A stretch of 64,000 nucleotides of DNA from the NCBI RefSeq assembly GCF_030846775.1, contig NZ_CP132910.1, positions 2,762,001 to 2,826,000 of the forward strand, written 5' to 3'. Numbering within the stretch: position 1 is the first letter of the stretch; every line of letters begins with the position of its first letter. Shown piece by piece: positions 18,496-63,291 of the stretch. A program made the position numbers and the translations under genes. The stretch is from Geothrix sp. 21YS21S-2 (GTDB taxonomy: Bacteria; Acidobacteriota; Holophagae; Holophagales; Holophagaceae). The notes beneath the pieces were generated by a model. The model was not told the origin of the DNA, ran no database searches, and worked only from the letters and a program-made list of their open reading frames with translations.

Positions 18496-21159
18496 ATGGT
18501 CAAACGTGTGCGTTTCAGGTTAATGATTAGATCATTAATTCAGAAGCTCCCCGCCGGGCTCGTCCTGCTGCCCCTCCTGCCGATCCTCCTGGCCGTGGGC
18601 TGCGGAAGCGGCTCCGCCGCCGCCAAGGGGAACTACCACCCCAAGGGCTGGCTGGGCGTCCATCAGGGGCAGGCCCTGGCCGACCTCGCCCGCTGCAGGA
18701 CCTGCCACGAGATGACCGTCCTCAAGGTGGGCAGCAGCATCCCCAACTGCATGACGGCGGACTGCCACCACGGCACCGTTCCCGGCTTCAGCCTGGCCGC
18801 CTCCCACGGCCTGCGGGCCAAGTCCGCCCAGGACGCCACGGGCGGGGGCCTCGCGTCCTGCCAGACCTGCCACGGGGCGGACTTCGCCGGCGGCGGTTCC
18901 GCGGTGTCCTGCAAGAGCTGCCACGGCGTCCCCGCGCCGCACCCCGCCAGGCCCTGGAATGATGCGGCCGGCCTCACCCACAGCACCACCGATCCCGCCA
19001 ACGCCGCGGTGTGCGCCCAGTGCCACCTGGCGGGTTCGGCCAGCAATCCCGCCGGGCATCCCGCCCAGTCCGCGGCCGCCGGCGCCGTGCCCTCCTGCTT
19101 CAACAACACCCTGTGCCACGGCGCGGCCGCCGCGCCCCACCCGCTGGGAGCCGCGTGGCGCGACGCCGCCAGCAGCGCCTTCCACGGCTTCCAGGCCAAG
19201 CAGAACCTGGTGTACTGCCAGTCCTGCCACGGCATTCCCGGCACCACGTCCTTCGGCGGCGGCTCCGTCTCCACGGCCTGCTCGGCCTGCCACACCGCGG
19301 CGGGGGCCCACTCCACCGTCTGGAGCGCGGCGCCCGTGGACACCTTCCCGGGCTACGTGCCCTCCCACCGCAACGCCCAGAACCGGGACCTGGCCTGCCC
19401 CCTCTGCCACGACTACACCCGGGGCCGCACCGCGCCGCTGCCGGCCGCTCCCAGCTGCTTCGCCGCTTCCTCCAACGCCGTGGCCTGCCACGCCAACGGC
19501 CCCGGCCAGGCCAACCACCCGGTGCCCTTCCAGGGTTCGCTCCACACCGCGGCCACCCAGACCTCCTTCAGCGCCGACTGCGCCACCTGCCACGCCGTGA
19601 CGGGCGCTTCCCCGCTGACGGGCGCGCCCAGCTGCGCCACCTGCCACGTGGCCGGTTCGCCCCTGGCCCGGACCTCCTGCACCTCCTGCCACGGCAGGCC
19701 CCCCACGGGGACCTCCTTCCCCGACGTGGCGGGCTCCCACGCCATTCACGAGGCCCTGGCGGGGGTGACGGGCCTGTGCTCCACCTGCCACAACACCTAC
19801 GACTCCGGCTCCCTGGAGCACTACAACCGCGCCAACGCCAGGCCGGGCCTGGGCACCGCCACCCAGCCCGCACCCGTGTCCCTGCTGGCGAGCTTCAACG
19901 CCAAGGCCGGCACCGCCGCCCTCAATCCCACGGCGCTCACCTGCTCCAGCGTGAGCTGCCACGGCGGCATCCCCACCCCGGCCTGGGGCAGGGCCACCAT
20001 CGACGTCAACTCCGATCCCGGCTGCCGCCAGTGCCACCAGGTGGGCACGGCCCAGGCCACGCCCGAGAACAACGCCGCCTGGTCCGGCCTCCACAGCTTC
20101 CACCTGGCCTCCGGCGTGGGCGCCCTGTGCACCGACTGCCACGGCATGGCCAACGGCACGCCCGGGGCCGCCAACCACTTCGCCCACCTGGACACGCCCC
20201 AGATGGAGGGCCCCGCCAGCGACACCATCCTCCTGCTGGGGAGCACGGCCAACACCTACGACCCGGTCAACCAGAACTGCACCGTGACCTGCCACAGCCA
20301 CGTGCACGCCGCCTCCTCCTGGAAGGGCGGCCCCAGCCACCCGGTGCCCTACCTGGGCACGGGCCACACCGGCGCCGGCAGCCAGACCGCCTTCAACGCC
20401 AACTGCTCCAGCTGCCACGCGGTGACGGGCACGTCCCCGGTGTCCACGGCGCCCCTGTGCAGCGTCTGCCACCAGGCGGGCTCCCCGCTCACGGTGGCCA
20501 ACTGCGCCTCCTGCCACGGCAGGCCCCCGGCGGCCGCCGCCTTCCCCGACGTCGCCGGGGCCCACGCCAGGCACAATGCCCTCGCGGGCGTCGCCGCCCA
20601 GTGCGGGGTCTGCCACACGAACTACGACGCCGGGACCCCGAACCACTACACCTACGCCAACGCCCGCCCCGGCGCCGACACGCTCCGGGTGCCGCCCGCG
20701 CCCACGGGCTTCTCGCCCACCTACAACGCGAAGGCCGGCGCCGCAGCCTTCGCTCCCGCCACCCTCACCTGTTCCAACGTGAGCTGCCACGGGGCCCTGT
20801 CGGCACCCAACTGGCGAACCGGGACCCTGGACTCCGCCGGGGCCACGGGCGACGCCGGCTGCCGCGCCTGCCACTCCCGGGGCACGTCCCTGGGCGTGCC
20901 GGAGAACAACAGCTACTATTCCGGCCACCACGGCACGCACCTGGGTTCGGAGGTGGCCGCCAAGTGCACCGACTGCCACGCCATGGCCAACGGCACGCCC
21001 GGGGCCCTGGCCCACTTCACCCGCCTGAACACCGCCGCCATGGAAGGCCCGGCCGGCGACACGATCCAGTACCTGGGCAGCCGCTCGGTCTACAACGCGT
21101 CCAACCGCACCTGCACCCTCACCTGCCACGGCGAGAACCACGCCAACCGGTCCTGGTAG
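18496..21159 (+). CDS. Multiheme c-type cytochrome lipoprotein (CxxCH plus CxxxxCH type)
   Basis: An 887-residue exported cytochrome with a signal ending in a lipobox (LAVGC), so probably lipid-anchored. I count 19 CxxCH heme sites. Six further cysteine pairs before histidine have wider spacing: three CX4CH, one CX5CH and two CX3CH. This pattern matches the Geobacter-type CxxxxCH/CxxCH domain. The C-terminal two thirds are a tandem duplication of about 250-275 residues. The ATG at 18496 follows AGGAG; the ATG at 18523 is possible and also precedes the signal. It heads a four-gene unit with a monoheme cytochrome, a barrel and a membrane cytochrome. It probably carries electrons across or outside the outer membrane. 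Confidence 0.88.
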   Translation: MVKRVRFRLMIRSLIQKLPAGLVLLPLLPILLAVGCGSGSAAAKGNYHPKGWLGVHQGQALADLARCRTCHEMTVLKVGSSIPNCMTADCHHGTVPGFSLAASHGLRAKSAQDATGGGLASCQTCHGADFAGGGSAVSCKSCHGVPAPHPARPWNDAAGLTHSTTDPANAAVCAQCHLAGSASNPAGHPAQSAAAGAVPSCFNNTLCHGAAAAPHPLGAAWRDAASSAFHGFQAKQNLVYCQSCHGIPGTTSFGGGSVSTACSACHTAAGAHSTVWSAAPVDTFPGYVPSHRNAQNRDLACPLCHDYTRGRTAPLPAAPSCFAASSNAVACHANGPGQANHPVPFQGSLHTAATQTSFSADCATCHAVTGASPLTGAPSCATCHVAGSPLARTSCTSCHGRPPTGTSFPDVAGSHAIHEALAGVTGLCSTCHNTYDSGSLEHYNRANARPGLGTATQPAPVSLLASFNAKAGTAALNPTALTCSSVSCHGGIPTPAWGRATIDVNSDPGCRQCHQVGTAQATPENNAAWSGLHSFHLASGVGALCTDCHGMANGTPGAANHFAHLDTPQMEGPASDTILLLGSTANTYDPVNQNCTVTCHSHVHAASSWKGGPSHPVPYLGTGHTGAGSQTAFNANCSSCHAVTGTSPVSTAPLCSVCHQAGSPLTVANCASCHGRPPAAAAFPDVAGAHARHNALAGVAAQCGVCHTNYDAGTPNHYTYANARPGADTLRVPPAPTGFSPTYNAKAGAAAFAPATLTCSNVSCHGALSAPNWRTGTLDSAGATGDAGCRACHSRGTSLGVPENNSYYSGHHGTHLGSEVAAKCTDCHAMANGTPGALAHFTRLNTAAMEGPAGDTIQYLGSRSVYNASNRTCTLTCHGENHANRSW
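19579..21156 (+). repeat. Internal tandem duplication in the multiheme cytochrome
   Basis: Two in-frame copies, 19579-20403 and 20404-21156, align at the protein level throughout. Each opens with C-x-x-CHAVTG, continues with CxxCHGRPP, FPDVAG, a CX4CH site, PENN, CTDCH plus MANGTPGA and a CX3CH site. Six CxxCH plus one CX4CH and one CX3CH occur in each copy. The first copy carries an extra linker at its end. Confidence 0.8.
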
Positions 21160-21180: not shown

Positions 21181-21534
21181 ATGCCCTTCCCACGCCTCGC
21201 TCTCCTCGTCCTCCTCTGCGGAGCGTCCCTGGCCGCCCAGAGCAGGAAGGAGGCCCCGCCCTTCGGCGGCGACTACCCCAAGTACTGGCTGGACGTGTGC
21301 GCCCGCTGCCACGGCGTGAACGGCAACGGCCGCGACAACGCCGGCCAGCAGCTGCCCGACAACGGCTTCGATTTCACCGACAGCCGCAAGGCCGGGCGGA
21401 AGAAGGATTCCGACTGGGTCCGCATCACCCTGGAAGGCAAGGAGAAGATGCCGGCCTTCAAGGGCAAGATGACCCCCGAGCAGGCCCAGAAGATGATCAC
21501 CGACATCATCCGTCCCTTCGGCGCCAAGCACTAG
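21181..21534 (+). CDS. Small monoheme c-type cytochrome
   Basis: The 117-residue periplasmic cytochrome has a cleavable signal (to SLAAQS) and one heme site, CARCH, near residue 40. A downstream methionine in KEKMPAFKGKM is a candidate axial ligand, as in class I cytochromes. AAGGAG lies five bases before the ATG. It follows the multiheme lipoprotein by 21 bases and is followed after ten bases by the barrel gene, so cotranscription is very likely. It may shuttle electrons between the inner-membrane cytochrome and the multiheme protein. Confidence 0.88.
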   Translation: MPFPRLALLVLLCGASLAAQSRKEAPPFGGDYPKYWLDVCARCHGVNGNGRDNAGQQLPDNGFDFTDSRKAGRKKDSDWVRITLEGKEKMPAFKGKMTPEQAQKMITDIIRPFGAKH

Positions 21535-21544
21535 GAGGCTGTCC

Positions 21545-22327
21545 ATGACCCCATGCCTGCGAACCGCCGCCCTGTGCCTGGCCTCGAGCCTCCTCTTCGG
21601 CGAGTCATCCGAATACCCCCTGGGGGTCAACCTGCCCACGGGCGACATGATGCAGTTCTGGGACCTGGGGATCGCCTTCACCCACCGCTTCTCCACGCCC
21701 GCCTCCGGCCACGGCAAGGACGCCTACGGCCTGGACGGCTACGCCTATCCGGGCTTCGGCGTGGACTTCGGGTTCAAGCCCGTCAAGGGCCTCAACGTGA
21801 TCCTCTACCGCACGGCGGACAACAAGACCTTCACGTTCGCCCTCCAGCAGCGGCTCCTCAACGCCGACGTCGTGCGCATGGCCCTCCGGGCCGAGCGGTT
21901 CGACGAGGTGGTCAGGCGCACCGAGACCCCCCTCGGCACCGTGGGCCTCACCGGCGCCGCCTGCCAGCTGCCCACGGAATTCTTCCTCGGGGACTTCGGG
22001 ATCCTGACGGTGGTTCCCACCTGGCTGAGCCGCACCACCACCCAGAAGAAGGCCGTCTTCACGGCGGGAGCGGGACTGCGCATCGATTTCACCGACAAGC
22101 TGGGCTTCGTGGCCGAGTACTACCCGCGCCCCCCGAAGATCGACAAGGCCTTCAAGCCGGGCTACGCCGCGGGCTTCACCTACAAGACCTTCAAGCACCG
22201 GTTCACCCTGGTGGGCACCAACACCTCGGGCACCACGGCCAACCAGGTCCTGTCCGGGGACTACGGCGGGGGCGCGCGCTCCACGGGCCAGTGGGCCCTG
22301 GGGTTCAACGTCGCCCGGACCTTCTGA
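21545..22327 (+). CDS. DUF5777-like outer-membrane beta-barrel protein
   Basis: The 260-residue protein has a short signal and alternating hydrophobic/polar strands throughout. It ends in the outer-membrane signature FNVARTF. Segments such as PTGDMMQFWDLGIAFTHRF and a PGFGVDFGFKP strand resemble DUF5777 family barrels. It sits inside a cytochrome operon, a position taken by porins in known porin-cytochrome conduits, so it may form the outer-membrane pore of this module. That role is inference; at 260 residues the barrel would be smaller than the porins of described conduits. Confidence 0.75.
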   Translation: MTPCLRTAALCLASSLLFGESSEYPLGVNLPTGDMMQFWDLGIAFTHRFSTPASGHGKDAYGLDGYAYPGFGVDFGFKPVKGLNVILYRTADNKTFTFALQQRLLNADVVRMALRAERFDEVVRRTETPLGTVGLTGAACQLPTEFFLGDFGILTVVPTWLSRTTTQKKAVFTAGAGLRIDFTDKLGFVAEYYPRPPKIDKAFKPGYAAGFTYKTFKHRFTLVGTNTSGTTANQVLSGDYGGGARSTGQWALGFNVARTF

Positions 22328-22330
22328 GTG

Positions 22331-23221
22331 ATGGGAAGCGCGCTCTTCGAGATCTTCTCCCGCGAACACCCCGCCCTGGTGCACGTGCCCCTGGGCATGG
22401 TCGTGGTGCTGCCGGTCATGATGGTGGCCGCCCACCGCTCCCGCTACCCGCAGACCTGGCGGCGCATGGCCTTCCGGGTCGCCCTGCTGGCCCTGGGGGG
22501 GAGCCTGCTCACCCTGCTGAGCGGCTTCTACTGGGCCCGGCTCCTCAACCTCATCCCCACGGGCGCCTTCCTCCCGGTCGTGGCCTCCCAGGGCCAGGCG
22601 CTCCAGCGCATCCTGCGCACGCACGAGCTCACGGCCCTGGCCGGCTTCGGCGTGGGGCTCCTGAACCTCCTGCTGCTGCGCAAGTCCTACCACGAGCCCG
22701 ACCGCATGCGGTGGACCACCGCGTGCCTGGCCGGGACCATCCTGTGGGCGGGCACCTGGGGCTACGTGGGCCGGCTGGGCGGGGTCATGGTCTTCGGCAG
22801 CGCCGAGACCAACAAGGCCGCGGCCGACGCCATCAACGCCAAGAAGAACGACGCCGAGGCGGAGCTCCCCGTCCGGGCCCTGGACTATGCCAGCCTGGAG
22901 CCGCTGCAGGCCGCCCCCTTCCGCAGCAGGGCCCACGGGGACCGCCTGGCCCGCACCTGGGTCACCGCCTCGGGAAGCGACGCCCTTGCGGCCGGCAAGG
23001 CCCTGCCCGTGGGCGCCTATGCGGTCATGAGCACCGAGGCCAAAGGCGGCCCGGGGCCCCTTTTCATGCGGGAGGCCAAGGCCGACGGAACCCAGGCCTT
23101 CGCCCTCTACTGGCCCCGGATCCCGGAGGCGGACCGCAAGGACTACGGCGGGGAGGACTTCGTCTACTGGCGCAGCCCGGCCCGGGGGCTGGAGACCTGT
23201 GCCGGGTGCCACGCTAGGTAA
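22331..23221 (+). CDS. Membrane cytochrome: DUF2231-like membrane domain with C-terminal P460-like heme domain
   Basis: The 296-residue protein begins with HPALVHVPLG, typical of DUF2231 membrane proteins. Four hydrophobic helices lie within residues 15-150 (near 16-32, 45-70, 93-113 and 122-145). The remaining 140 residues are periplasmic and end in DFVYWRSP...CAGCHAR, a heme site at the extreme C-terminus as in cytochrome P460-like domains. An adjacent GTG at 22328 is less likely than the ATG. It closes the four-gene cytochrome unit and could be its quinol- or periplasm-facing partner. The P460 assignment rests on layout, not on identified cross-link residues. Confidence 0.7.
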   Translation: MGSALFEIFSREHPALVHVPLGMVVVLPVMMVAAHRSRYPQTWRRMAFRVALLALGGSLLTLLSGFYWARLLNLIPTGAFLPVVASQGQALQRILRTHELTALAGFGVGLLNLLLLRKSYHEPDRMRWTTACLAGTILWAGTWGYVGRLGGVMVFGSAETNKAAADAINAKKNDAEAELPVRALDYASLEPLQAAPFRSRAHGDRLARTWVTASGSDALAAGKALPVGAYAVMSTEAKGGPGPLFMREAKADGTQAFALYWPRIPEADRKDYGGEDFVYWRSPARGLETCAGCHAR

Positions 23222-49734: not shown

Positions 49735-51054
49735 TCAGTTCCTCTTGGTGGGCATGATGAAGTTCATTTCGGCAGCGTCCGGGGCGCCCCGGTCCGAGGA
49801 CTGGATCACCACGCGGATGGGGTTGAGCTCCTGGCCGCCGGCGGGGGCGGCGATGTCGAAGGTCCGCTCCAGGGCGGCTCCGGGGGCCAGGGTGAGGGGA
49901 TTGCGGTCCAGCATCACCCGGGCGCCCGGCAATCCCTCGACCCAGACCCGGATCTCCACCGGCCTGGGGGAGCGGTTGGCGAGGTTCATGCGGACCCGGT
50001 TGGCCACGCTGCCGTCGGGCAGCAGGGTGAAGAGGGTCGCGCGGTCCGGGGTGACCCGCATGAGCACCGGCTTGCGCAGGTACAGCGTCAGCCCCAGCGC
50101 CGTCAGGTAGGCCGCCATCACGAAGAGGATCACGAAGCGCTTGGGGTCCCTGAAGCCCCAGCGGCGGAACCAGGGCTCCTTCCGGGCGGAGGCCGCGGAG
50201 CCGCCCCAGGAGTAGTGGATGAGGCCGGGGTGGCCCACCTTGGCCAGCACCTCGTCGCAGGCGTCGATGCAGTCGCCGCAGTGCACGCACTCGATCTGGT
50301 AGGGGCCCTTGCGGATGTCGATGCCCATCTCGCAGACCCGGACGCACTTCTTGCAGTCGATGCAGGCGGAGGTGGGGTCCTGGTAGGCCACCAGGAGGGA
50401 GTGGCGGTCCTGGAGCATGCCCTGCATGTAGCCGTAGGGGCACACGGTGGTGCAGAAGGTCTGCTTGACCAGGGTGAAGTCCAGGAAGGTCACGAGGGTG
50501 ACCGAGGCGCCCATGATGCCGCCCACCGAGGCCAGGTCGAAGCGGAGCAGGCGGTGCAGCAGGTCCCGGGGTTCGATGAAGTAGGCCATGAAGACGAAGG
50601 CCAGGAACACCGAGGCCGCCGCCAGGACGGCCAGGAAGAGGCCCTTGCCCAGCATCTTCCGGCCCAGGGGCTTCGCCGTCCACCTCTGGGCCAGCTTCAT
50701 GGCCCAGGCCTCCACGGCGGTGCTCGCCTCGCTGAAGATCATCTGGGGGCAGGCGTAGCCGCAGTACACGCGCCCGTACATGATGGCCACCACCGCGATG
50801 ACGAACATCAGGAACATCAGGGCGAAGAACAGGATGCTGAACTCGCTGATGAGCACCTCGAAGCCGGCGAAGTAGAACCGCTGCCGGGGGATGTCGAAGC
50901 GCATCAGGTTGGAGAAGGGCAGGACCAGGAAGACCAGGAAGCAGATCAGGTGGAACAGCTTCCGGAGGGGACGGTGGCCCCGCCCCGGGGGGGGCAGGGG
51001 CTTGCGTTTCTCAGCCAGGAGCCAGTGCCGCGCGGGAGGGACGGCCTCACTCAT
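49735..51054 (-). CDS. ccoG: cbb3 oxidase accessory protein CcoG (FixG), polyferredoxin
   Basis: The 439-residue protein has about five membrane helices, the cysteine sites CGYACPQ and CTTVCPYGYMQ, and two 4Fe-4S sets, CIDCKKCVRVCEMGID and CVHCGDCIDACDE. It ends in a FixG C-terminal Ig-like domain (NRVRMNLANRSPRPVEIRVWVEG). CcoG reduces copper before insertion into cbb3 oxidase. The start overlaps the stop of the upstream flavoprotein (51051-51054). Confidence 0.93.
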   Translation of the reverse strand: MSEAVPPARHWLLAEKRKPLPPPGRGHRPLRKLFHLICFLVFLVLPFSNLMRFDIPRQRFYFAGFEVLISEFSILFFALMFLMFVIAVVAIMYGRVYCGYACPQMIFSEASTAVEAWAMKLAQRWTAKPLGRKMLGKGLFLAVLAAASVFLAFVFMAYFIEPRDLLHRLLRFDLASVGGIMGASVTLVTFLDFTLVKQTFCTTVCPYGYMQGMLQDRHSLLVAYQDPTSACIDCKKCVRVCEMGIDIRKGPYQIECVHCGDCIDACDEVLAKVGHPGLIHYSWGGSAASARKEPWFRRWGFRDPKRFVILFVMAAYLTALGLTLYLRKPVLMRVTPDRATLFTLLPDGSVANRVRMNLANRSPRPVEIRVWVEGLPGARVMLDRNPLTLAPGAALERTFDIAAPAGGQELNPIRVVIQSSDRGAPDAAEMNFIMPTKRN

Positions 51055-52985
51055 CGGCTATAAAGAATTCGTGGATTCGGGGTGGGCACGGCGACGCATT
51101 CCTTGTAATGCACAAAACGTTTCATGAGAATGGCCTGGGTGGGGCACCGGGAGGCGCACATGGCGCAGCGGATGCAGGTGCTCTCGTCCTTCAGCATGAT
51201 TCCGCCCAGTTCGTCCTTCTCCTCCATGGACATGGCCCGGTAGGCCTCGAACGGGATATCGGCACCGGCCTGTTCGAGCTTGAGCCAGGCGTCCTCGTCC
51301 TTGAGGCGGCTGAGGCCCACCAGCTTGATGAGGTCCTCGGGGCACACGTCCACGCAGCCGTTGCAGGCGATGCAGGTGGAGGTGTCGAACACGGTGTTGA
51401 TGTTGCAGCGCAGGCAGCGGGCCCCCTGGCGCCGGGCCATCTCCTCGGGGTAGCTCAGCTCCACGATCTCGGTGGAGGCGGCACGGATCCCGCTCTCCAG
51501 CACCGGGGCGTTGCAGCGCTCCTCGCGGTGCCAGCCTTCGGCCATGGTGTAGACGGCGGGTTCCCAGTGCTTGCGCACCACCACGTCGGTGCGGGTGCCG
51601 CGCAGGAAGTCGTGCATGCTGCGCGCGGCGGTGTGGGCCGAGGCGATGGCGTCGATGAAGAGCCGGGCGCCGTGGGCGATGTCGCCGCAGGCGAAGATGT
51701 CGGGGGCGGTGGTCTGGTAGGTCTCCTTGTTGACCTTGATGAGGCCGCGCTCGGTCTCGACCCCGTCGGCCTCGGAGAGGAACGTCAGGTCCGAGGTCTG
51801 GCCGATGGCGAAGATCACCGTGTCCACCGGGATGTCCTCCAGGGCCGTCTCGTCGAAGGTCGGCGCGAACCGCCGCTCCTCGTTGAAGACCGAGAGGCAC
51901 TTCACCGTGCGCATGGCCTTGACCTTGCCGTTCTCGACGACGATCTCCTTGGGGCCGCGGCGGTTGTGGAGGCGGATGCCCTCCTCCTCGCCCTCATGGA
52001 TCTCCACCTTGTCGGCGGGCATCTCCTCGAGGGACTCCAGGCACATGAGGTGGATCTCCTTGTCCCCGGACAGGCGCAGCGCGGACCGCGCCACGTCGTA
52101 GGCCACCTTCTCGTCGTGGCCCATGGATTCGCGGACCAGCTCCTCCTCGGTGGCCTCCATGGGCCGCAGGGCGCTGCGCGCCACGTCGTAGGCCACGTTG
52201 CCGCCGCCCACCACCATCACGCGCCGGCCCAGTTCCAGCGTCCTGCCGTCGTTGAAGGCGCGCAGGAACTCCATGCCGTCGTAGACGCCCTGGGCGTCGC
52301 CTCCGGGCAGGCTGAGCTTGCGCCCGTTGGGGAGCCCCACGCCCAGGAAGATCGCCTTGTAGCCCTGGTCGCGCAGCTGCTGGATGGTGAAGTCGCGGCC
52401 CAGCTTCATGTTGCACTTGAGGTCCACGCCCATGGAGACGATGGCCTCGATCTCGTGGTTGACCAGCTCCCGGGGGAGCCGGAAGACCGGGACGCCCGTC
52501 ATGAGCATGCCGCCGGGCTTGGAATCGGCCTCGAACACGGTGACCTTGTAGCCCACCTGGACCAGGTCGTGGGCCACGGTGAGCCCGGACACGCCGGCCC
52601 CGATGACCGCGACCCGCTCGTAGTCGCCCCGGTTGGGGGGCAGCATGCGCTGGTCGCAGCCTTCCCTGTAGCGGGCGTAGTCGCCCGTCTCGGGCCCGAA
52701 CTTGTCCGTGACGAACCGCTTGAGGGCGCGGATCGCCACGGGCTCGTCCAGGGACCCCCTGCGGCAGTTGGCTTCGCAGGGGGCCCCGCAGACGCGGCCG
52801 CAGATGGACGCGAAGGGATTGGTGGCCCGCGCGGCCCGGTAGGCGTCCTCGTACCGGCCTTCGGCGATGGCGGTCACGTAGGCGCATGCGTCGGTGTTGA
52901 CCGGGCACGCGTATTGGCACTTGACCATCTCCAGCCAGTACTGGGAGTCGTCCGGAACCCTGAGCTGCCAATTCCCCATATCCAC
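51051..52985 (-). CDS. FAD-dependent oxidoreductase with 4Fe-4S clusters (GltD-like)
   Basis: The 644-residue protein has an N-terminal cysteine-rich GltD-type domain (CQYACPVNTDACAY, CGRVCGAPCEANCRRG), an FAD site GAGVSGLT and an NAD(P) site VGGGNVAYD. A C-terminal ferredoxin part contains CIACNGCVDVCPEDL and CIRCAMCASRCPTQA. An 11-residue segment VAYDVARSALR occurs twice, 90 bases apart. I start at GTG 52985 (AAGGAG ten bases away); ATG 52979 is possible. It lies inside the cbb3 operon and probably feeds or withdraws electrons from NAD(P)H, a quinone or a ferredoxin. The partner is unknown. Confidence 0.85.
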   Translation of the reverse strand: MDMGNWQLRVPDDSQYWLEMVKCQYACPVNTDACAYVTAIAEGRYEDAYRAARATNPFASICGRVCGAPCEANCRRGSLDEPVAIRALKRFVTDKFGPETGDYARYREGCDQRMLPPNRGDYERVAVIGAGVSGLTVAHDLVQVGYKVTVFEADSKPGGMLMTGVPVFRLPRELVNHEIEAIVSMGVDLKCNMKLGRDFTIQQLRDQGYKAIFLGVGLPNGRKLSLPGGDAQGVYDGMEFLRAFNDGRTLELGRRVMVVGGGNVAYDVARSALRPMEATEEELVRESMGHDEKVAYDVARSALRLSGDKEIHLMCLESLEEMPADKVEIHEGEEEGIRLHNRRGPKEIVVENGKVKAMRTVKCLSVFNEERRFAPTFDETALEDIPVDTVIFAIGQTSDLTFLSEADGVETERGLIKVNKETYQTTAPDIFACGDIAHGARLFIDAIASAHTAARSMHDFLRGTRTDVVVRKHWEPAVYTMAEGWHREERCNAPVLESGIRAASTEIVELSYPEEMARRQGARCLRCNINTVFDTSTCIACNGCVDVCPEDLIKLVGLSRLKDEDAWLKLEQAGADIPFEAYRAMSMEEKDELGGIMLKDESTCIRCAMCASRCPTQAILMKRFVHYKECVAVPTPNPRILYSR

Positions 52986-52989
52986 GGCT

Positions 52990-53289
52990 CTAATGCTCCT
53001 TGACGGACCGGAAGGTGAACACGGCCATGATGACCACGTAGATCAGGGCCAGGATCGCCACGGCGTACTGCAGGGCCGGGCTGGTCTGGGTGACCTTGTT
53101 GAACTGCTGCACGAAGGCGCCGCGGGTGGCGTGGTCCACGTCGCCCATCATCTGGAGGACGATGTAGGCCACGCAGCCCAGGCCGATGATGGGGAAGACC
53201 AGCTTGAGGAAGAAGGGGAAGTCGGTGCCCTTCCTCTCCATGATCCAGCCGCCCGCATAGTCCTTCAGTTCTTCCTTCTGCTCACTCAT
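52990..53289 (-). CDS. Small two-helix membrane protein of the cbb3 operon
   Basis: The 99-residue protein has a charged N-terminus (MSEQKEELKDYAGGWIMERKGTD). Helix 1 (FFLKLVFPIIGLGCVAYIVLQ) is followed by a 30-residue polar stretch and helix 2 (AVAILALIYVVIMAVFTF). It has no heme site. Its front vaguely recalls the N-terminal membrane part of CcoP, which is otherwise missing from this operon, but the similarity is too weak to name it. GGAGA precedes the ATG. It overlaps the CcoQ-like gene by eight bases. Confidence 0.72.
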   Translation of the reverse strand: MSEQKEELKDYAGGWIMERKGTDFPFFLKLVFPIIGLGCVAYIVLQMMGDVDHATRGAFVQQFNKVTQTSPALQYAVAILALIYVVIMAVFTFRSVKEH

Positions 53290-53455
53290 GGGTTCTCCTC
53301 TGATCGTCGTCTTCCAGCATGCGGAACTTGATGTCCTCCCCGTCCTTGCCCCAGTAGCCGTCCTTGGCGGTCTTGACGAAGAAGAACACCGCCAGGGCGA
53401 ACATCAGGAAGAAGAACAGATAGGCGAAATAGACGCTGGGCCAGGTGTAGTCCAT
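53282..53455 (-). CDS. ccoQ: CcoQ/FixQ-like small subunit of cbb3 oxidase
   Basis: The 57-residue protein has a single membrane helix (YFAYLFFFLMFALAVFFFV) followed by a polar tail (KTAKDGYWGKDGEDIKF), the usual shape of CcoQ. It lies two bases after ccoO, the standard position. The start ATG at 53455 lies inside a longer frame that would run back through ccoO; the short form is favoured by size. Assigned from position and size rather than strong sequence motifs. Confidence 0.7.
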   Translation of the reverse strand: MDYTWPSVYFAYLFFFLMFALAVFFFVKTAKDGYWGKDGEDIKFRMLEDDDQRRTHE

Positions 53456-53457
53456 GG

Positions 53458-54027
53458 CTACTTCTCGTAGTCGTTGGCCGGGCGCCAGTCCTTGGCGCGC
53501 CCGAGGGTCTGCATGTAGGCCACCAGGGCGGTGAATTCCTTGGGATCGTTGACGATCCATGGGAAGGCCGGCATGATCGAGCCCTTGACGAGGTCGCGGG
53601 GATTGCGGAAGTGGGTGCGGTGCCACTGGGTGTCGTAGCGCCCGCCGATGCGCGCGAGGTCGGGACCGGTGCGCTTGGTGCCGAACATGTGCGGGGTGTC
53701 GTAGACGAACTCGTCGGGCGTGGAGATGGGGGCGTCGACGCCCTTCCAGCCGTAGCGCTTGGTGTCGGCCAGCAGGGTGCGGATCTGCTGCGTGTGGCAG
53801 TACCAGCAGCCTTCCCGCACGTAGATGGCGCGGCCCTGCAGCTGCTGCTCGTTGAGCTTCGCCAGGTGCCCCGTGGGACCCTTGGCGGGATCGGAGTTGG
53901 CGAAGGGCTTGCCCCAGCTCTTGTCGACCATGGGCGGCACCACGGTGGTGAGCAGGCCTCCGATGAAGAAGAGGACGAGGGACGCGACGATGGCCCAGAC
54001 TGCGGAAGTGTCGGCTTTTCTCAGCAT
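53458..54027 (-). CDS. ccoO: cbb3-type cytochrome c oxidase subunit II (CcoO)
   Basis: The 189-residue protein has an N-terminal membrane anchor (VWAIVASLVLFFIGGLL) and a periplasmic monoheme domain. The heme site is CWYCHTQQIRTL and the probable axial methionine is in SIMPAFPWI, both diagnostic for CcoO/FixO. It receives electrons and passes them to the CcoN heme b. It lies 19 bases downstream of ccoN. Confidence 0.93.
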   Translation of the reverse strand: MLRKADTSAVWAIVASLVLFFIGGLLTTVVPPMVDKSWGKPFANSDPAKGPTGHLAKLNEQQLQGRAIYVREGCWYCHTQQIRTLLADTKRYGWKGVDAPISTPDEFVYDTPHMFGTKRTGPDLARIGGRYDTQWHRTHFRNPRDLVKGSIMPAFPWIVNDPKEFTALVAYMQTLGRAKDWRPANDYEK

Positions 54028-54046
54028 GTTCGCTCCTTTCTGGCCG

Positions 54047-55441
54047 CTACGCGGCCGCCTCGGTTTCGGGTCCGAGGACGGTGGCCATGATGTTGTAGGC
54101 GAACATCACGATGCCGACGAAGATCATCACGCCGGAGATGAACCGGACGGTCCAGATGGGCTTGAGGGCCACGACCGTGTCGATGAAGGGGATGGAGACG
54201 TTGTTCCACTGCCAGCCCTGCCAGAAGCCGCCGAGCCAGAGGGTGGTGAAGAAGCCCAGGCCGCCGATCATGATCATCCAGTAGCTCCAGTTGGCCAGGG
54301 GCACCGAGTGCAGGAGCTTGCCGAACACCCGGGGCGCCGCGTAGTAGGTGCCCGCGATGGCGAAGAAGCTGAAGGCGCCGAGCACCGCCATGTGGGCGTG
54401 GCCGGGGATCCAGTCGGTCTTGGAGACGATGGCGTTCACGGTGCGCAGGCTGTGCATGGGGCCCTGGAAGCACGTGAGCAGGTAGAAGACGACGCCGGAC
54501 ATGAGGAACTTCAGCTCGACCTTGTCGCGCAGCTGGTGCCACTGGCCCTTCATCGTGATGATGAGGTTGTAGACCACGGCCCACACGGGGACCAGGAGCA
54601 TGAGGCTGAAGGCGATGGCGATGGTCTGCAGCCACTGGGAGATGGGTCCGTGGAGCATGTGGTGGGCGCCGGTCCAGACGTAGACGAAGGCCAGGGACCA
54701 GAAGCCGACCATGGAGAGCTTGTGGCTGAACAGCGGGGTGTTGGAGGAGCGGGGGATGAAGTAGTAGGCGATGCCCAGGCCCACCGGGGTGAAGATGAGG
54801 CCCACGGCGTTGTGCACGTACATCCAGTTCAGGTTGGCCTGGTTCACGCCCGTGGCGAGCAGCGTGGCGAAGTTCCCTGTGAGGTAGACGAAGGCCGTCC
54901 AGAGCAGGCAGCCCATGAAGTACCAGATGGACACGTACATGGCCTGGTACTTCCGCTGGAAGATGGTCATGAGGATGTTGGCCGTGAACATGAGCCAGGC
55001 CACCACCACCAGGACGCTGATGAACATCTCCAGCTCGCCGTATTCGAAGCCCTTGTTGCGGCCCAGGAGCAGGCTGACCACGGCGCTGAGGATGATGATG
55101 TTCCAGAGGATGCCCGTGGCCACGCCCAGCTTCTCGCTCCAGATCTTCACGGCGCAGAGGCGGGGCACGATGTAGAAGGTCAGGCCCATGTCGGCGGCCA
55201 GGAGCCAGCCGAAGAGCATGCCGTTGACGTGCAGGGGACGGAGGCGCCCGTAGGTGAGCCAGGACGTGGTGCCCATGAGGTCGGGCCACACGAACTTGGC
55301 CGCGATGACGAGGGCGATGATCCCCACGATGAAGAAGTAGCTGATGGAACTCACTACGAACCACTTGACCGTGGTGTCCTCGTGGATGATGGCCCCCGGA
55401 GCTGCGCCTCCGGATTCCGCACGGCTAAATTGTTCCTGCAT
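54047..55441 (-). CDS. ccoN: cbb3-type cytochrome c oxidase subunit I (CcoN)
   Basis: The 464-residue heme-copper oxidase subunit has 12 predicted membrane helices. Visible histidine ligands are in [14 protein letters not shown] (low-spin heme), the copper-site pair [11 protein letters not shown], and [11 protein letters not shown]. It reduces O2 to water with high affinity and contributes to proton pumping. The start overlaps the end of the heptaheme cytochrome gene by 17 bases, so the oxidase core is translationally coupled to that cytochrome rather than to a CcoP gene. Confidence 0.94.
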
Positions 55442-57239
55442 TCTGGCCCCCCTTGGGTTTGGGATTGAGATTCCTGAGGAAGTTCACGAGATCGCCCACA
55501 TCGTTGTTGCTCATGCCGTAGTCGATCCAGGACGGCATCGCCGTGCCCTGGACGCCGTAGAGGATGGAGTCGAAGAGCCGGGTGTCGTTCACGCTGGCCA
55601 TGAAGAGGCCGTTGCGCAGGTTCCTCGGCTTGGGGAGGATGTCCAGGGAGTTGGGCCCCTTGCCGTCGCCCTTGCGGCCGTGGCAGCCCGCGCACCGGTT
55701 GACGAAGGTGGCTTCGCCGCGGGCGATGGACTCGGGGCTGGAGGCCACCGGGTTGGCGGCGGGCAGGTTCCGGGCCTTGGGCTCCTGGCGGGGCTCCTTG
55801 ACGAAGGCCGTCTGGATGTAGCCCAGGAGGGCCGTGGCCTGCTTCTCGTCCACCAGCTTTCCCCAGGCGGGCATGGACGTCCCGTCAACGCCCTTGCTGA
55901 TGGAGGCCACCAGGCGGCCCATGGGCTTGGAGTTCATGAAGGCGGCCTTGGTGAAGTCCCGGGGGGACGGGTCCAGGTGCTCGGCGATGAGCCCGCGGCC
56001 GTCACCCTTTTCCCCGTGGCAGCGCAGGCAGAGCGCCTTGTAGGTGGCTTCGGGGGTGGGCATGGCCGGCACCGCCTTCAGGCCGGACAGGTAGGAGGTC
56101 ATGGCCTTGAACTCGTCGTCGGTGAACCGGAAGGCCGGCATGATGGAGTCCGGCATGGTGATGCGCGGATTCCTGAAGTGGGAATCCAGCCACGCGGGAT
56201 CCTTCACGAGTCCCTCGAAGCTGAGGTCGGGAGCGATGGCCCCGTCCTTGGCGCCGAGCTTGTGGCAGGCGGTGCAGGCGCGGTCGAGGACCAGCTGCTC
56301 GCCCTGCTTCGCCATCTGGGCGGGGTTGATCTGGACGGGCTTGATGTGGGCCTGGACCAGTTCCGCGCCGCCGGTGGCGCGCAGGCGGTAGCGGTCCATC
56401 TCCGTCTCGGAGAAGTTCTTGCCCTTGCGGCTCTTGAGGAAGATGACCAGGGCCTTGATGTCCTGGTCGGAGAGCATGTTGAACTTGGGCATGATGGAAG
56501 TGGCCAGCACGGACTTGGGATCCTTGATGCGGGTGTACAGGTAGTCGATCTTGAACTTGCGGCCCACCTCCGTGAGATCGGGGCCGATGGTGCCGTCCGA
56601 GAGCCCTTCGATGCGGTGGCAGCCGTAGCAGTTGCTGGCGTAGAAGAGGTCCATGCCCTTGCGCACGGTGGGCGTGCCGGTGAAATGGGCGCCGGTGTGG
56701 CACTGGGCGCAGTTGGCCTCCAGGTACTCCTTGCCCCGGAGCATGGGCACGAACTCCTTGCGCCAGTTCTCCTGGACCGCGGCTCCGAGGATGGGGTCGG
56801 GCCAGTACTCGTCCTCCCCGTGGGCGTCCTTGGGGCTGAGGCCCCGGCCCTGGCCGTCGTGGCACACGGTGCAGCCGAACTCGCTGAACTTGTGCCGGCG
56901 CTCCCACCTGCCGTTCTTCTGGACGTCGCCCATGGCCAGCGAATAGGGGTGGGTCTTGAGGGGCTGCTGGTAGGTCGAGAACCGGGGGTCGTCGGAGGCG
57001 ATGTGGCAGGTGATGCAGCGGTCCACCCGGGTCTCCCCGAAGTCGGCCACCACGGTCTGCTCGATGCGCGGACCCCGCGCCTCGAGGGAGGCCCTCTCCG
57101 CCTCGCCCTTCGCCATGGCCTTGGCCTGGTTGAAATAGGCGATCTGGTGCGCCTCCCACTTGTGGGAGAACTGGTTGTAGAGGATGACCCCGTGGATCAC
57201 GAGGATCAGGAAGGTTCCGACGGCGAGTGCGAATCTCAT
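55425..57239 (-). CDS. Membrane-anchored heptaheme c-type cytochrome
   Basis: The 604-residue protein has an uncleaved N-terminal anchor (residues 3-22) and seven CxxCH sites at cysteines 75, 123, 177, 204, 322, 404 and 516. The first three sites resemble a multiheme domain. The last four belong to class I-like cytochrome domains with methionine candidates in IMPKF, IMPAF, SMPAW and AMPSW. It lies between cytochrome b and ccoN, where a cytochrome c1 or CcoP function is needed. It is probably the electron wire from the bc part to the oxidase. It overlaps ccoN by 17 bases. Confidence 0.9.
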
Positions 57240-57249
57240 GGGTTGGACC

Positions 57250-58539
57250 TCACCAAGGGGTAACGAAGGCCCAGTTGGGACCGCGGAAGAACGTTCCGAT
57301 GATGACGAAGATGACGTTCGCCAGGAGGAAGGTCAGGAAGATGGTGTTGGCCAGGAGGCGGTCCTTGGAGAACCACACGCCCACGCCCTTGGGGGAGCGG
57401 TCCAGGTAGGGCGTGAGCAGCAGCAGCCCCACGAAGATGCCCGGAACCCCGATGCCGCCCCAGAACGCCGAGTAGGACACCATCTCCTGGAGGCCCAGGA
57501 AGTACCAGGGCGCCTTGGCGGGGTTGGGCGGATGCATGACGTTGACAGGCTCCTCCAGCGGCGCGTTGAAGAGCAGCGCGAGCACCAGGATCACCGCGAG
57601 GGTCATGACGAACACGAAAAGCTCGGACATGAAGAGGTTCGGCCAGGAGAAGACCGTGTTGTCCGGGATGTTGTTCACCTTGGTCAGGGGCCCGCGCACC
57701 AGGCCCTGGAGGCCGTAGGTCTTCTTGCCCTCCAGGAGGGAGGGCTTGGGGTCCGTCATGGCGGCCATCATCTCCATGGGCGGGGTGGGGTCGGCGTCGG
57801 CGGGCCGGGAGAGGCCGCCATCCTTGCGGATGCGCCAGAAGTGGATCGCGATGGCCATGGTCAGCACGGCGGGGAGCACGGCCACGTGGAGGACATAGAA
57901 GCGCAGCAGCGCCTCCTGGCCCACGGTGGATCCCCCCATGAGCAGGAACTGGATGTCCTTGCCGATGACGGGAGCGTAGCCGGCGATGGCGGTGCCCACG
58001 GTGATGGCCCAGAAGGCCAGCTGGTCCCAGGGGAGCAGGTACCCCGTGAAGCTCATGAGCAGGGTCAGCAGCAGCAGGACGACGCCCAGCACCCAGTTGA
58101 ACTCCCGGGGCTTCTTGTAGGAGCCCGTGAGGAACACCCGGCACAGGTGCATGACCACCACCGCGACCATGCCGTGGGCGGACCAGCGGTGCATGTTGCG
58201 AAGGATGGTCCCGAAGGCGACGGATCCGCGCAGGTCAAGCATCCGGTCGTAGGCCTGGGTCGTGCTGGGGACGTAGTAGAACATCAGGAGGATCCCGGTG
58301 ATGACCAGGATCACGAAGAGGAAGAACGAGACCAGGCCGAGGCCCAGGGTATAGAGGGGCCGAAGGGTGTTCTTGTGCACCTTCACCGGGTGGATGTGCA
58401 GGAAGAAGTTGGTGAAGCTGGTGCTGGAACGTTCCAGGTCGTTGGTGGGCAGGGGATTGCGGAAGATCGACTTCCACACGTTCCCCGGCAGTTCCTTCAC
58501 CGCGGTCAGGAGGGAGGGGCTTGCCGTCTCTTTGCTCAT
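57250..58539 (-). CDS. Cytochrome b of a bc-type complex
   Basis: A 429-residue quinol-oxidising cytochrome b. The N-terminal part has two heme-ligand histidine pairs on helices around [15 protein letters not shown] and [21 protein letters not shown]. The C-terminal part has [11 protein letters not shown] in the place of the PEWY loop of the quinol site, so the usual glutamate is replaced by an alanine/proline context as in some menaquinol complexes. The single chain fuses the b6-like and subunit-IV-like halves. The start overlaps the Rieske stop by four bases. Confidence 0.92.
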
Positions 58540-59024
58540 AGGGTCAGGTAGCTCCCGGGGGTGATCTCGGTGTCCTTGTCCACTTCGATCTCGCCGTTGG
58601 GGGCCAGCGTGATCTTGTACCAGGGAAGCGCGCGCGGGGCGGGGCCGCCGGTGACCGTGCCGTCGGAATCGAACCGCGATCCGTGGCAGGGGCAGGCGAA
58701 GCCCGTGTCGGCCAGGCCCACGATGCAGCCCAGGTGGGTGCAGGTGGTGCTCAGGGCCGCGAGCTTGTTGCCTTCGCGCACGACGCAGATGCGACGGGCC
58801 TCCAGGGCGATGCGGGTGCCCGCCGGAAAGTCGTCGGGCTTGCCGATGCTGAACCGCTGCGGCTGGCCGTAGGTGGCCCTGGGCTTGATGAACACGAAGT
58901 TGGAGACGGCGCTCAGGACGCCCGAGCCGACCAGGCCCGTGCCGGTGATCCAGGCCAGCATCCTCCGGCGCGAAACCGCCACCTGGGTGCCTCCCCCGCT
59001 ACTTCTTTTCAGATTGACTGCCAT
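58536..59024 (-). CDS. Rieske 2Fe-2S protein
   Basis: The 162-residue protein has a twin-arginine-like signal anchor ([18 protein letters not shown]) and the cluster motifs CTHLGC and CPCHGS, with the second half reading [20 protein letters not shown]. It is the high-potential acceptor of quinol oxidation in the bc complex. The ATG at 59024 is preceded by AGGGAGG at six bases. The 5' end overlaps the CcoS-like gene by 26 bases, coupling an oxidase assembly factor to the bc complex. Confidence 0.94.
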
Positions 59025-59196
59025 CAACAGCCTCCCTAGTTGAATCCGTGGAATCTTTCCTGTCCGACCAGAAGACCTGGTATTTCGCGTCCTCGATGTC
59101 CTTGAACCAGCCGCGCTTGACCGCGAAGACGAAGAGGAAGGCCGCGGCGAGTCCCATCGCGAGGCTCGCGGCGATGGAGATCCACGTCATTTCCAT
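58999..59196 (-). CDS. ccoS: cbb3 oxidase assembly protein CcoS
   Basis: The 65-residue protein has one membrane helix ([21 protein letters not shown]) followed by [17 protein letters not shown]. That reproduces the CcoS pattern of helix, sGQFdDle and -rIL-. A GGGGAGG lies six bases before the ATG at 59196; the frame runs on to 59340 without a start of similar quality. CcoS is needed for cofactor insertion into cbb3 oxidase. It is the first gene of the 12-gene operon and is separated from ccoI, its usual neighbour, by the whole operon. Confidence 0.85.
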
Positions 59197-61511: not shown

Positions 61512-62129
61512 ATGCCAACCCCTTCCCTGAGGCTGCCATCCGGCGCCTGCGCTGCGCTGGCTGCCTGCGCGATCCTTCTCACCGGCTGCGACCGGGACCA
61601 GGTGAGCCGCTCGGCCCCGGTTCCCGCCGCGCCCGCTTCGCCAATGCCCGCCGCGACACCGAGCGGCATGCCCCCGGGGATGTCCGGGGACGTGGCCCCA
61701 CCGCCGGCGCCCGCCAGCCCCCTCCACTGGACCCTTCCCAAGGGCTGGACCGAGACCCCGGGCAGCGGCATGCGCTTCGCGACCCTCAACCCGCCCGGCC
61801 CGGGCAAGATCGAGCTGTCCGTCGTGTGCCTTCCGGGCCAGGCGGGGGGTGAACTGGCCAACGTGAACCGCTGGCGCGGGCAGATCGGCCTGGAACCCCT
61901 GGACGAGAAAGCCCTGGCGGCCTCCCGCCAGACCGTCAAGAGCAAGGCCGGCTCGGTGGCGGTCTTCGACTTCGCCAGCCAGGGGCAGGCCCAGACCCGT
62001 ATGATCACGGGCTCCCTCACCACCAAGGACGGCAGCACCTGGTTCCTCAAGCTCGTGGGCGACGCGGTACCCGTGGCCAAGGCCAAGCCCGACTTCATGC
62101 GCTACCTGGAGACCCTCCACCTTGATTAA
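61512..62129 (+). CDS. Hypothetical lipoprotein upstream of resB
   Basis: The 205-residue protein has a lipobox (LLTGCD) and a proline/alanine-rich linker (residues 33-70). A compact domain follows (LHWTLPKGWTETPGSGMRFATL ... WFLKLVGDAVPVAKAKPDFMRYLETLHL), which resembles uncharacterised lipoproteins next to cytochrome-maturation genes. The stop overlaps the resB TTG start by eight bases, so it is coupled to system II cytochrome c biogenesis. A role in heme delivery or apocytochrome handling is possible but not shown by motifs. Confidence 0.75.
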   Translation: MPTPSLRLPSGACAALAACAILLTGCDRDQVSRSAPVPAAPASPMPAATPSGMPPGMSGDVAPPPAPASPLHWTLPKGWTETPGSGMRFATLNPPGPGKIELSVVCLPGQAGGELANVNRWRGQIGLEPLDEKALAASRQTVKSKAGSVAVFDFASQGQAQTRMITGSLTTKDGSTWFLKLVGDAVPVAKAKPDFMRYLETLHLD

Positions 62130-63291
62130 GACATACGCCCTCCGCTTCTGGAACGGCCTGGCGTCCATGCAGGTCACCATCGTCTCCCTGGTGCTCCTGA
62201 TGGCCCTGGTCGTGCTCTGCACCCTGGCCCAGACCGACCTGGGAACCTTCGGCGCCGTCAAGGTGTACATGCGTTCCTTCCTGGTCTGGCGCTACTTCCC
62301 GGGACTGCCCTTCCCCCTGCCCATCTTCCCGGGCGGAGCCCTGGTGGGCCTGGTGCTCCTGTTCAACCTCTCCGTGGCGGGCTTCAAGCGCCTGGAGCCC
62401 AACTGGTCGAAGTGCGGGCTCTGGCTGGCCCACGGCGGCCTGATCCTCCTGGTGGCCGGGGAGTTCTCCACCGGCGCCTTCCAGGTGGAGACGAACATGT
62501 CCATCGAGACCGGTCAGACCGTGAACTGGCTGGAGAGCCCCCGGGACTTCGAGCTGACCGTCACCGACGTCACCGATCCCGGGCAGCCCCAGGCCTACGG
62601 GGTGCCGGAGAGCCTCCTGGCCAAGGGCCGGGACGTGGCCCTGCCCGGCACGCCCCTGACCATCCGGGTGAAGAAGTTCTTCCCCAACGCGAACCTGACC
62701 CGCCTGGGCCCGGGCGATCCCCCGCCCCTGGCCACCCAGGGCGTCGGCACGGGCGTCAAGGTCACCGAGGCGCCCCTGGCCGCCACGGAGACCGAGGTCA
62801 ACATGGTCACCGCCGTCGTCGAGCCCATGGCCGGTGGGCACAGCTACGGCACCTGGCTGGCCTCCAACGGCATCGGCGCGCCCCAGAGCTTCATCCACGA
62901 AGGGCGCACCTACACCCTGGGCATCCACAACCGGCGCTACTACCTGCCCTACTCCATCACGCTCAAGAAGTTCAGCCACGACCTCTACCCCGGAACCCAG
63001 ATCCCGAAGAACTTCTCCAGCCTGGTCCACATTTCCGATCCCGCCCGGGGCGAGGAGCGGGACGTGCTCATCTCCATGAACCAGCCCCTGCGCTACGACG
63101 GCCGGGCCTTCTACCAGGCCAGCTTCGGCAAGGGGGACCAGCTGAGCATCCTCCAGGTGGTGAAGAACCCCGGGTGGCTGCTCCCCTACATCTCCTGCAC
63201 GCTCATCACCCTGGGCCTGCTCATCCACTTCGGGATCACCCTCCGGCGCTCCACGAAAAAGCGCAATGAAACCCAGGAGGTGACGGCATGA
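62122..63291 (+). CDS. resB: Cytochrome c biogenesis protein ResB
   Basis: The 389-residue protein has three N-terminal membrane helices, a large periplasmic domain (residues 110-350, with SLVHISDP, MNQPLRYDGRAFYQASF) and a final helix. That is the ResB/CcsB layout. With CcsA/ResC it exports heme and attaches it to CxxCH in system II maturation. The start appears to be TTG at 62122, overlapping the lipoprotein stop; the next ATG (62167) would remove most of the first helix segment. The stop overlaps the next ATG. Confidence 0.88.
   Translation: MIKTYALRFWNGLASMQVTIVSLVLLMALVVLCTLAQTDLGTFGAVKVYMRSFLVWRYFPGLPFPLPIFPGGALVGLVLLFNLSVAGFKRLEPNWSKCGLWLAHGGLILLVAGEFSTGAFQVETNMSIETGQTVNWLESPRDFELTVTDVTDPGQPQAYGVPESLLAKGRDVALPGTPLTIRVKKFFPNANLTRLGPGDPPPLATQGVGTGVKVTEAPLAATETEVNMVTAVVEPMAGGHSYGTWLASNGIGAPQSFIHEGRTYTLGIHNRRYYLPYSITLKKFSHDLYPGTQIPKNFSSLVHISDPARGEERDVLISMNQPLRYDGRAFYQASFGKGDQLSILQVVKNPGWLLPYISCTLITLGLLIHFGITLRRSTKKRNETQEVTA

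Follow-up and report, generated by a model that had tools for sequence, protein, structure and literature searches.

How many haems does a cytochrome carry when many of its haem motifs are wider than CX2CH, and which synthase would attach them? The question arises from a window of 64,000 nucleotides of the genome of Geothrix sp. 21YS21S-2, a soil bacterium of the acidobacteriotal family Holophagaceae (contig NZ_CP132910.1, positions 2,762,001 to 2,826,000 of the forward strand), in which the open reading frame at 18496-21159 (+) encodes a giant cytochrome of 887 residues. A first-pass annotation of the window had counted 19 CX2CH sites and six further sites with three to five intervening residues, placed several of the latter at equivalent positions of two duplicated halves, and named the System II machinery encoded in the same window as a candidate for attaching haem to them. 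Taken as a whole, we consider it likely that the protein carries 26 haems, that these are loaded by one CcsB/CcsA pair, and that the protein takes part in surface electron transfer together with the products of three conserved downstream genes.

Haem-site inventory and layout

The 887-residue protein contains 26 Cys-His dipeptides, each with one cysteine upstream, and these sites fall into 19 CX2CH, two CX3CH, three CX4CH, one CX5CH and one CX9CH. The earlier figures for canonical and CX3-5CH sites are correct, yet the CX9CH site at residues 321-332 had been overlooked, so that seven of the 26 sites are wide. Besides the lipobox cysteine C36, which has a counterpart in the relatives, there are 52 cysteines, and these make up exactly the 26 Cys...Cys-His sites with none to spare. 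The combination of 26 CXnCH sites and a lipobox places the protein among exported multihaem c-type cytochromes, and its Pfam matches are Cytochrome_C7 (E = 9.9e-19) and Cytochrom_c3_2. The features of the gene, all on the + strand, are as follows.

18496..21159, +, giant 26-site multihaem c-type cytochrome with lipoprotein signal (CXnCH count, Pfam, TIGR01904)
18601..18603, +, lipobox cysteine C36 (LLAVGC), the sole cysteine outside haem-type motifs
18604..19161, +, six-site head region (2-4-2-2-2-5) with homology to a family of stand-alone hexahaem lipoproteins
18748..18768, +, CX4CH, residues 85-91; the stand-alone hexahaem paralogues have CX2CH here
19096..19119, +, CX5CH, residues 201-208; kept as CX5CH in every head-bearing giant and in all 13 hexahaem paralogues
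19162..19503, +, four-site adaptor (2-2-2-9)
19456..19491, +, CX9CH, residues 321-332, CFAASSNAVACH; CX14CH in many relatives
19504..20328, +, octahaem module 1 (2-2-2-2-4-2-2-3)
19942..19962, +, CX4CH, residues 483-489
20278..20295, +, CX3CH, residues 595-600; CX4CH or CX7CH here in some relatives
20329..21156, +, octahaem module 2 (2-2-2-2-4-2-2-3)
20770..20790, +, CX4CH, residues 759-765
21112..21129, +, CX3CH, residues 873-878

The duplication noted at first is real, each octahaem module having a CX4CH and a CX3CH in corresponding positions, but the repeats (residues ~337-611 and 612-887, 55% identical) make up only the C-terminal two thirds of the protein rather than its two halves. The N-terminal third (~336 residues) is a different ten-site region outside the repeats, composed of the head (2-4-2-2-2-5) followed by the adaptor (2-2-2-9).

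That the wide motifs are chance coincidences of Cys, Cys and His in a cysteine-rich protein is a negligible prospect. When all residues outside the canonical motifs were permuted, each shuffle gave 0.11 CX3-5CH sites on average and none of 20,000 gave more than three, compared with the six observed, and a chance origin is further refuted by the family-wide conservation seen in the alignment described below.

Conservation of the wide sites across Holophagaceae

Relatives of the giant cytochrome were found in 39 of 77 Holophagaceae genomes at E <= 1e-50 (source genome counted), and in a phylum sample of 396 Acidobacteriota genomes the matches at E <= 1e-30 were confined to this family. No plasmid matched, and one scan of genome contigs matched only Holophagaceae bacterium UBA706 and a Thermincola protein whose sites are all CX2CH. 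The Thermincola proteins (L037) have 7 to 17 CXXCH sites, all canonical, in contrast to the Holophagaceae family.

We read 36 Holophagaceae proteins in full frame, including the source protein and some that are cut at contig ends, and found 284 wide sites, with spacers of 3, 4, 5, 7, 9 or 14 residues, among a total of 1,066 CXnCH sites. All 36 follow a common grammar of head, adaptor and then one to several octahaem modules, in which the adaptor is 2-2-2-9 or 2-2-2-14 and at times missing or doubled, and the number of sites per protein ranges from 15 to 72. The largest relative (L080:4942-12957, genome G098) has 72 CXnCH sites in 2,672 residues, and three others (L042, L094 and L095) have 50 to 55 each. 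After the first site, none of the 36 proteins has an unpaired cysteine among its sites; the single cysteine flagged in L094 is the lipobox cysteine, preceded by a spurious CH that lies in the 5' part of the frame left untrimmed. Haem counts based on CXXCH only would miss seven of the 26 sites in the giant cytochrome and 284 of 1,066 across the family, and searches that allow two to four spacer residues would still miss CX5, CX7, CX9 and CX14.

The alignment of homologues that had been suggested as a check bears out the claim that the wide sites are selected rather than random. When 22 relatives (51-88% identity) were trimmed to a common arrangement and aligned, all 22 kept the first cysteine at the wide sites of residues 85, 201 and 321, as they did the canonical cysteines. 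The column at residue 595 holds cysteine in just 11 of 19 sequences because the spacer length differs, the sequences having CX3CH, CX4CH or CX7CH at this place. The first cysteine of both wide sites is also invariant in the 72 octahaem modules compared, whose identity to the query ranges from 34 to 88%. Homologues that lack the first cysteine were sought and none was found, with no loss among the 284 wide sites, whereas spacer length is free to vary at fixed positions (3/4/7/9 or 9/14), the wide site of the adaptor having 9 or 14 residues across the relatives. Both TGC and TGT are present among the wide-site cysteine codons, which indicates that the residue, not the DNA, is what is kept. About 29 of the 32 histidines outside the motifs of the giant cytochrome are conserved, enough to provide a second axial ligand for 26 haems. 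With this pattern of conservation, the wide sites look functional.

The strongest evidence of this kind comes from the stand-alone hexahaem paralogues, which a genome search found to be 37-45% identical to the head of the giant cytochrome. They keep the CX5CH in 13 of 13 cases as their sole wide site, and have a canonical CX2CH at the position of the head's CX4CH. The occurrence of a wide and a canonical site at one position in related proteins is the best sequence evidence for haem at the wide sites.

Probable haem attachment at the wide sites

The giant cytochrome would then be an outer-membrane lipoprotein in which a head with six haems and an adaptor with four precede two modules of eight, most likely with covalent bis-histidine haem c at each of the 26 CXnCH sites, wide or canonical. 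At the seven wide sites, the extra one to seven residues may bulge as a loop, with both cysteines still forming thioether bonds.

Two other readings of the wide sites have to be weighed against this one. A protein with only 19 haems, in which the wide sites act as structural or metal-binding Cys/His elements, is very improbable: the CH and the upstream cysteine are retained at every wide site, the conserved non-motif histidines suffice for 26 sites, wide sites interchange with CX2CH in the paralogues, and CX4CH belongs to a cytochrome family model. Somewhat less remote, although we still regard it as rather improbable, is attachment through a single thioether, where haem is held by the second cysteine and the histidine and the first cysteine is kept for a disulphide during maturation or for contact with the synthase. 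A loosely tethered first cysteine would fit the free spacer length at fixed positions, and the model of one review expects CcsBA to hold both cysteines of CXXC (PMC10663686), which long spacers would strain. Were the bond dispensable, though, the complete retention of the first cysteine would be unlikely; the equivalent site in the hexahaem paralogues is CX2CH; and the solved or measured precedents, OmcZ and MmcA, carry haem at their wide sites. Disulphides among the first cysteines of wide sites were also considered as a general account and ruled out by the odd counts, since seven wide sites in the giant and one in the hexahaem paralogue could not all be used in this way.

Probable maturation by a single CcsB/CcsA pair

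The genes for the System II components lie next to each other at the end of the window.

62122..63291, +, ResB/CcsB, the sole ResB match in the genome
63288..64000, +, start of CcsA, which runs to about 65039, past the window end; the sole Cytochrom_C_asm match in the genome

CcsA carries the tryptophan-rich motif WGWDP (WGRFWGWDPKEN). We searched the whole genome (5.25 Mb, single contig) for synthases, and for System I the profile search found no CcmE match in it. With one ResB, one CcsA-type match and no CcmE in the genome, the candidacy of System II is strengthened, and the pair is likely to be the synthase for all spacers. Ten other genomes with giant cytochromes (G002, G014, G033, G036, G061, G071, G074, G085, G086 and G098) also have one match each, and in four of these (G014, G036, G061 and G074) the protein that was read contains CX14CH. 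From these gene counts we infer that one pair may serve spacers of 2 to 14 residues: the single split CcsB/CcsA of Geothrix sp. 21YS21S-2 would load every site and tolerate spacers of 2, 3, 4, 5 and 9, and tolerance would extend up to 14 in the relatives that also show one pair.

Such breadth would run against what has been described. A review reports dedicated CcsBA enzymes for CX15CH and CXXCK substrates (PMC10663686), and the same is expected from PMC12285233. By this rule a single enzyme for CX9 and CX14 would be an exception, and if true, a spacing-blind pair would contradict the idea that unusual spacings can be served only by dedicated enzymes. A close parallel is the CX15CH cytochrome of Wolinella succinogenes and its CcsA1, where a wide site is likewise matured by System II (PMC10663686, PMC12285233); there a dedicated isoenzyme is used, in contrast to the single CcsB/CcsA pair of the Holophagaceae genome.

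The Wolinella example, in which CXXCK and CX15CH are handled by dedicated CcsBA enzymes, also lends some weight to the idea that the wide sites are loaded by another synthase, divergent or dedicated, or by an adaptor. Some of the other relatives possess two or more CcsBA-type loci, and a divergent enzyme could escape a profile search. We nevertheless consider a second enzyme unlikely, because one ResB and one CcsA were found in the source genome and in each of the ten others, including the CX14 carriers G036 and G014, and no CcmE was found in the source genome. As the family provides natural spacer-length variants of the same site, and the genome only one known pair of synthase genes, the spacer tolerance of System II is directly testable here.

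Comparison with known multihaem cytochromes

The wide sites are not new in kind, as CX4CH is already part of the curated family TIGR01904 (GSu_C4xC__C2xCH; CxxxxCH/CxxCH cytochromes, the name taken from Geobacter sulfurreducens), to which the octahaem modules belong. The whole giant cytochrome scores 30.7 bits against the curated cut-off of 27, each of the 72 octahaem modules matches at E <= 0.01, and the family's layout of CX4CH followed by CX2CH is found at residues 483 then 510 and 759 then 789. The model spans 73 positions, approximately one CX4CH-CX2CH stretch, and is without the CX5, CX7, CX9 and CX14 sites and the head or adaptor layout. Sites of the CX3, CX4 and CX14 classes are documented elsewhere, while a search of open-licence papers for 'CX5CH' together with 'heme', in that spelling only, returned none. 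What sets the present family apart is that spacer classes of 3, 4, 5, 7, 9 and 14 are found together and regularly placed, apparently with a single synthase.

Haem has been observed at wide sites in two of the comparable proteins. OmcZ of Geobacter sulfurreducens resembles the giant cytochrome as a multihaem outer-surface cytochrome with a wide site (PMC9473688, PMC11208441), and its cryo-EM structure has haem at the site with a 14-residue spacer (PMC9473688). It differs in being a polymerising subunit with eight haems and one wide site, compared with the seven wide sites of the Holophagaceae giant. A relation to OmcZ found no backing in searches of solved chains, either by sequence or by the fold of the octahaem module, the latter being a weak test for a fold that depends on haem. 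MmcA of Methanosarcina acetivorans also mixes CXXCH, CXXXCH and CXXXXCH, and mass spectrometry showed haem on its CXXXCH and CXXXXCH sites, all of its sites being haem-bearing by mass (PMC11024163); unlike the giant, it is archaeal, has seven haems and relies on different maturation machinery.

The AlphaFold2 model of an octahaem module reached a pLDDT of 78.5 and matched no solved structure; that of the full mature protein (pLDDT 34.6) was discarded.

In size, modular build, variable haem number and an adjacent porin, the giant cytochrome is similar to the 24- and 49-haem cytochromes of Burkholderiales (PMC7399161), which belong to another phylum and were found by a motif search that allowed only two to four spacer residues (PMC7399161). 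The same Geothrix genome has a decahaem locus of the OmcA/MtrC type, and the giant cytochrome sits in a gene cluster separate from it. No Pfam match to an MtrC/MtrF-type domain was obtained in the giant cytochrome at E <= 10, such matches being present only elsewhere in the genome. At the decahaem locus (L053:4888-9036), a five-haem protein, a hexahaem head paralogue (2-2-2-2-2-5) and an adjoining MtrC/MtrF-domain cytochrome are encoded in a row; it is likely a second extracellular electron-transfer locus.

Gene neighbourhood and a probable role in electron transfer

Three genes follow the giant cytochrome on the same strand, and each is a conserved neighbour.

21181..21534, +, small monohaem cytochrome c (CARCH); Cytochrome_CBB3, E = 2.2e-8
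21545..22327, +, outer-membrane beta-barrel DUF5777; E = 9.4e-21
22328..23221, +, DUF2231-like membrane protein with C-terminal CAGCH; 26.1 bits against a cut-off of 26.4

This trio is found downstream of giant cytochromes at 23 other Holophagaceae loci, including a paralogous locus of the same genome, and is missing in L080, L094 and L095, which are among the longest relatives, and in the CX7CH group (L044, L078 and L079). The DUF5777 barrel lies within 400 nt of the multihaem cytochrome, as in porin-cytochrome pairs; it has only 260 residues, which weighs somewhat against the proposed role at the step across the outer membrane. No paper combining DUF5777 and cytochrome was found in our literature search. 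The conserved trio suggests extracellular electron transfer, and a role of this kind at the cell surface is the best-supported function. Electrons would most likely be carried on the surface by the giant cytochrome together with the three downstream gene products. Previous studies have linked Holophaga and Geothrix to extracellular electron transfer (PMC11748539, PMC7399161), and the four genes conserved together are a candidate for an electron conduit in this group. A broader proposal, possible although on balance doubtful, is that one CcsB/CcsA pair is blind to spacing (2 to 14) and that the giants with up to 72 sites form, along with the separate monohaem cytochrome, the small DUF5777 barrel and the DUF2231-like haem-motif protein, an undescribed Holophagaceae conduit for extracellular electron transfer.

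Within the source genome, the paralogous locus (L038:7839-13914) encodes a giant cytochrome 75% identical to the one described here, and a monohaem cytochrome and a barrel 96-97% identical to their counterparts, a difference that suggests that only the small genes underwent a recent duplication or gene conversion. The window also holds a respiratory cluster (49735-59027) that encodes a CcoG-like ferredoxin protein, FixO, COX1 (cbb3-type), a cytochrome with seven CXXCH sites, cytochrome b and a Rieske protein.
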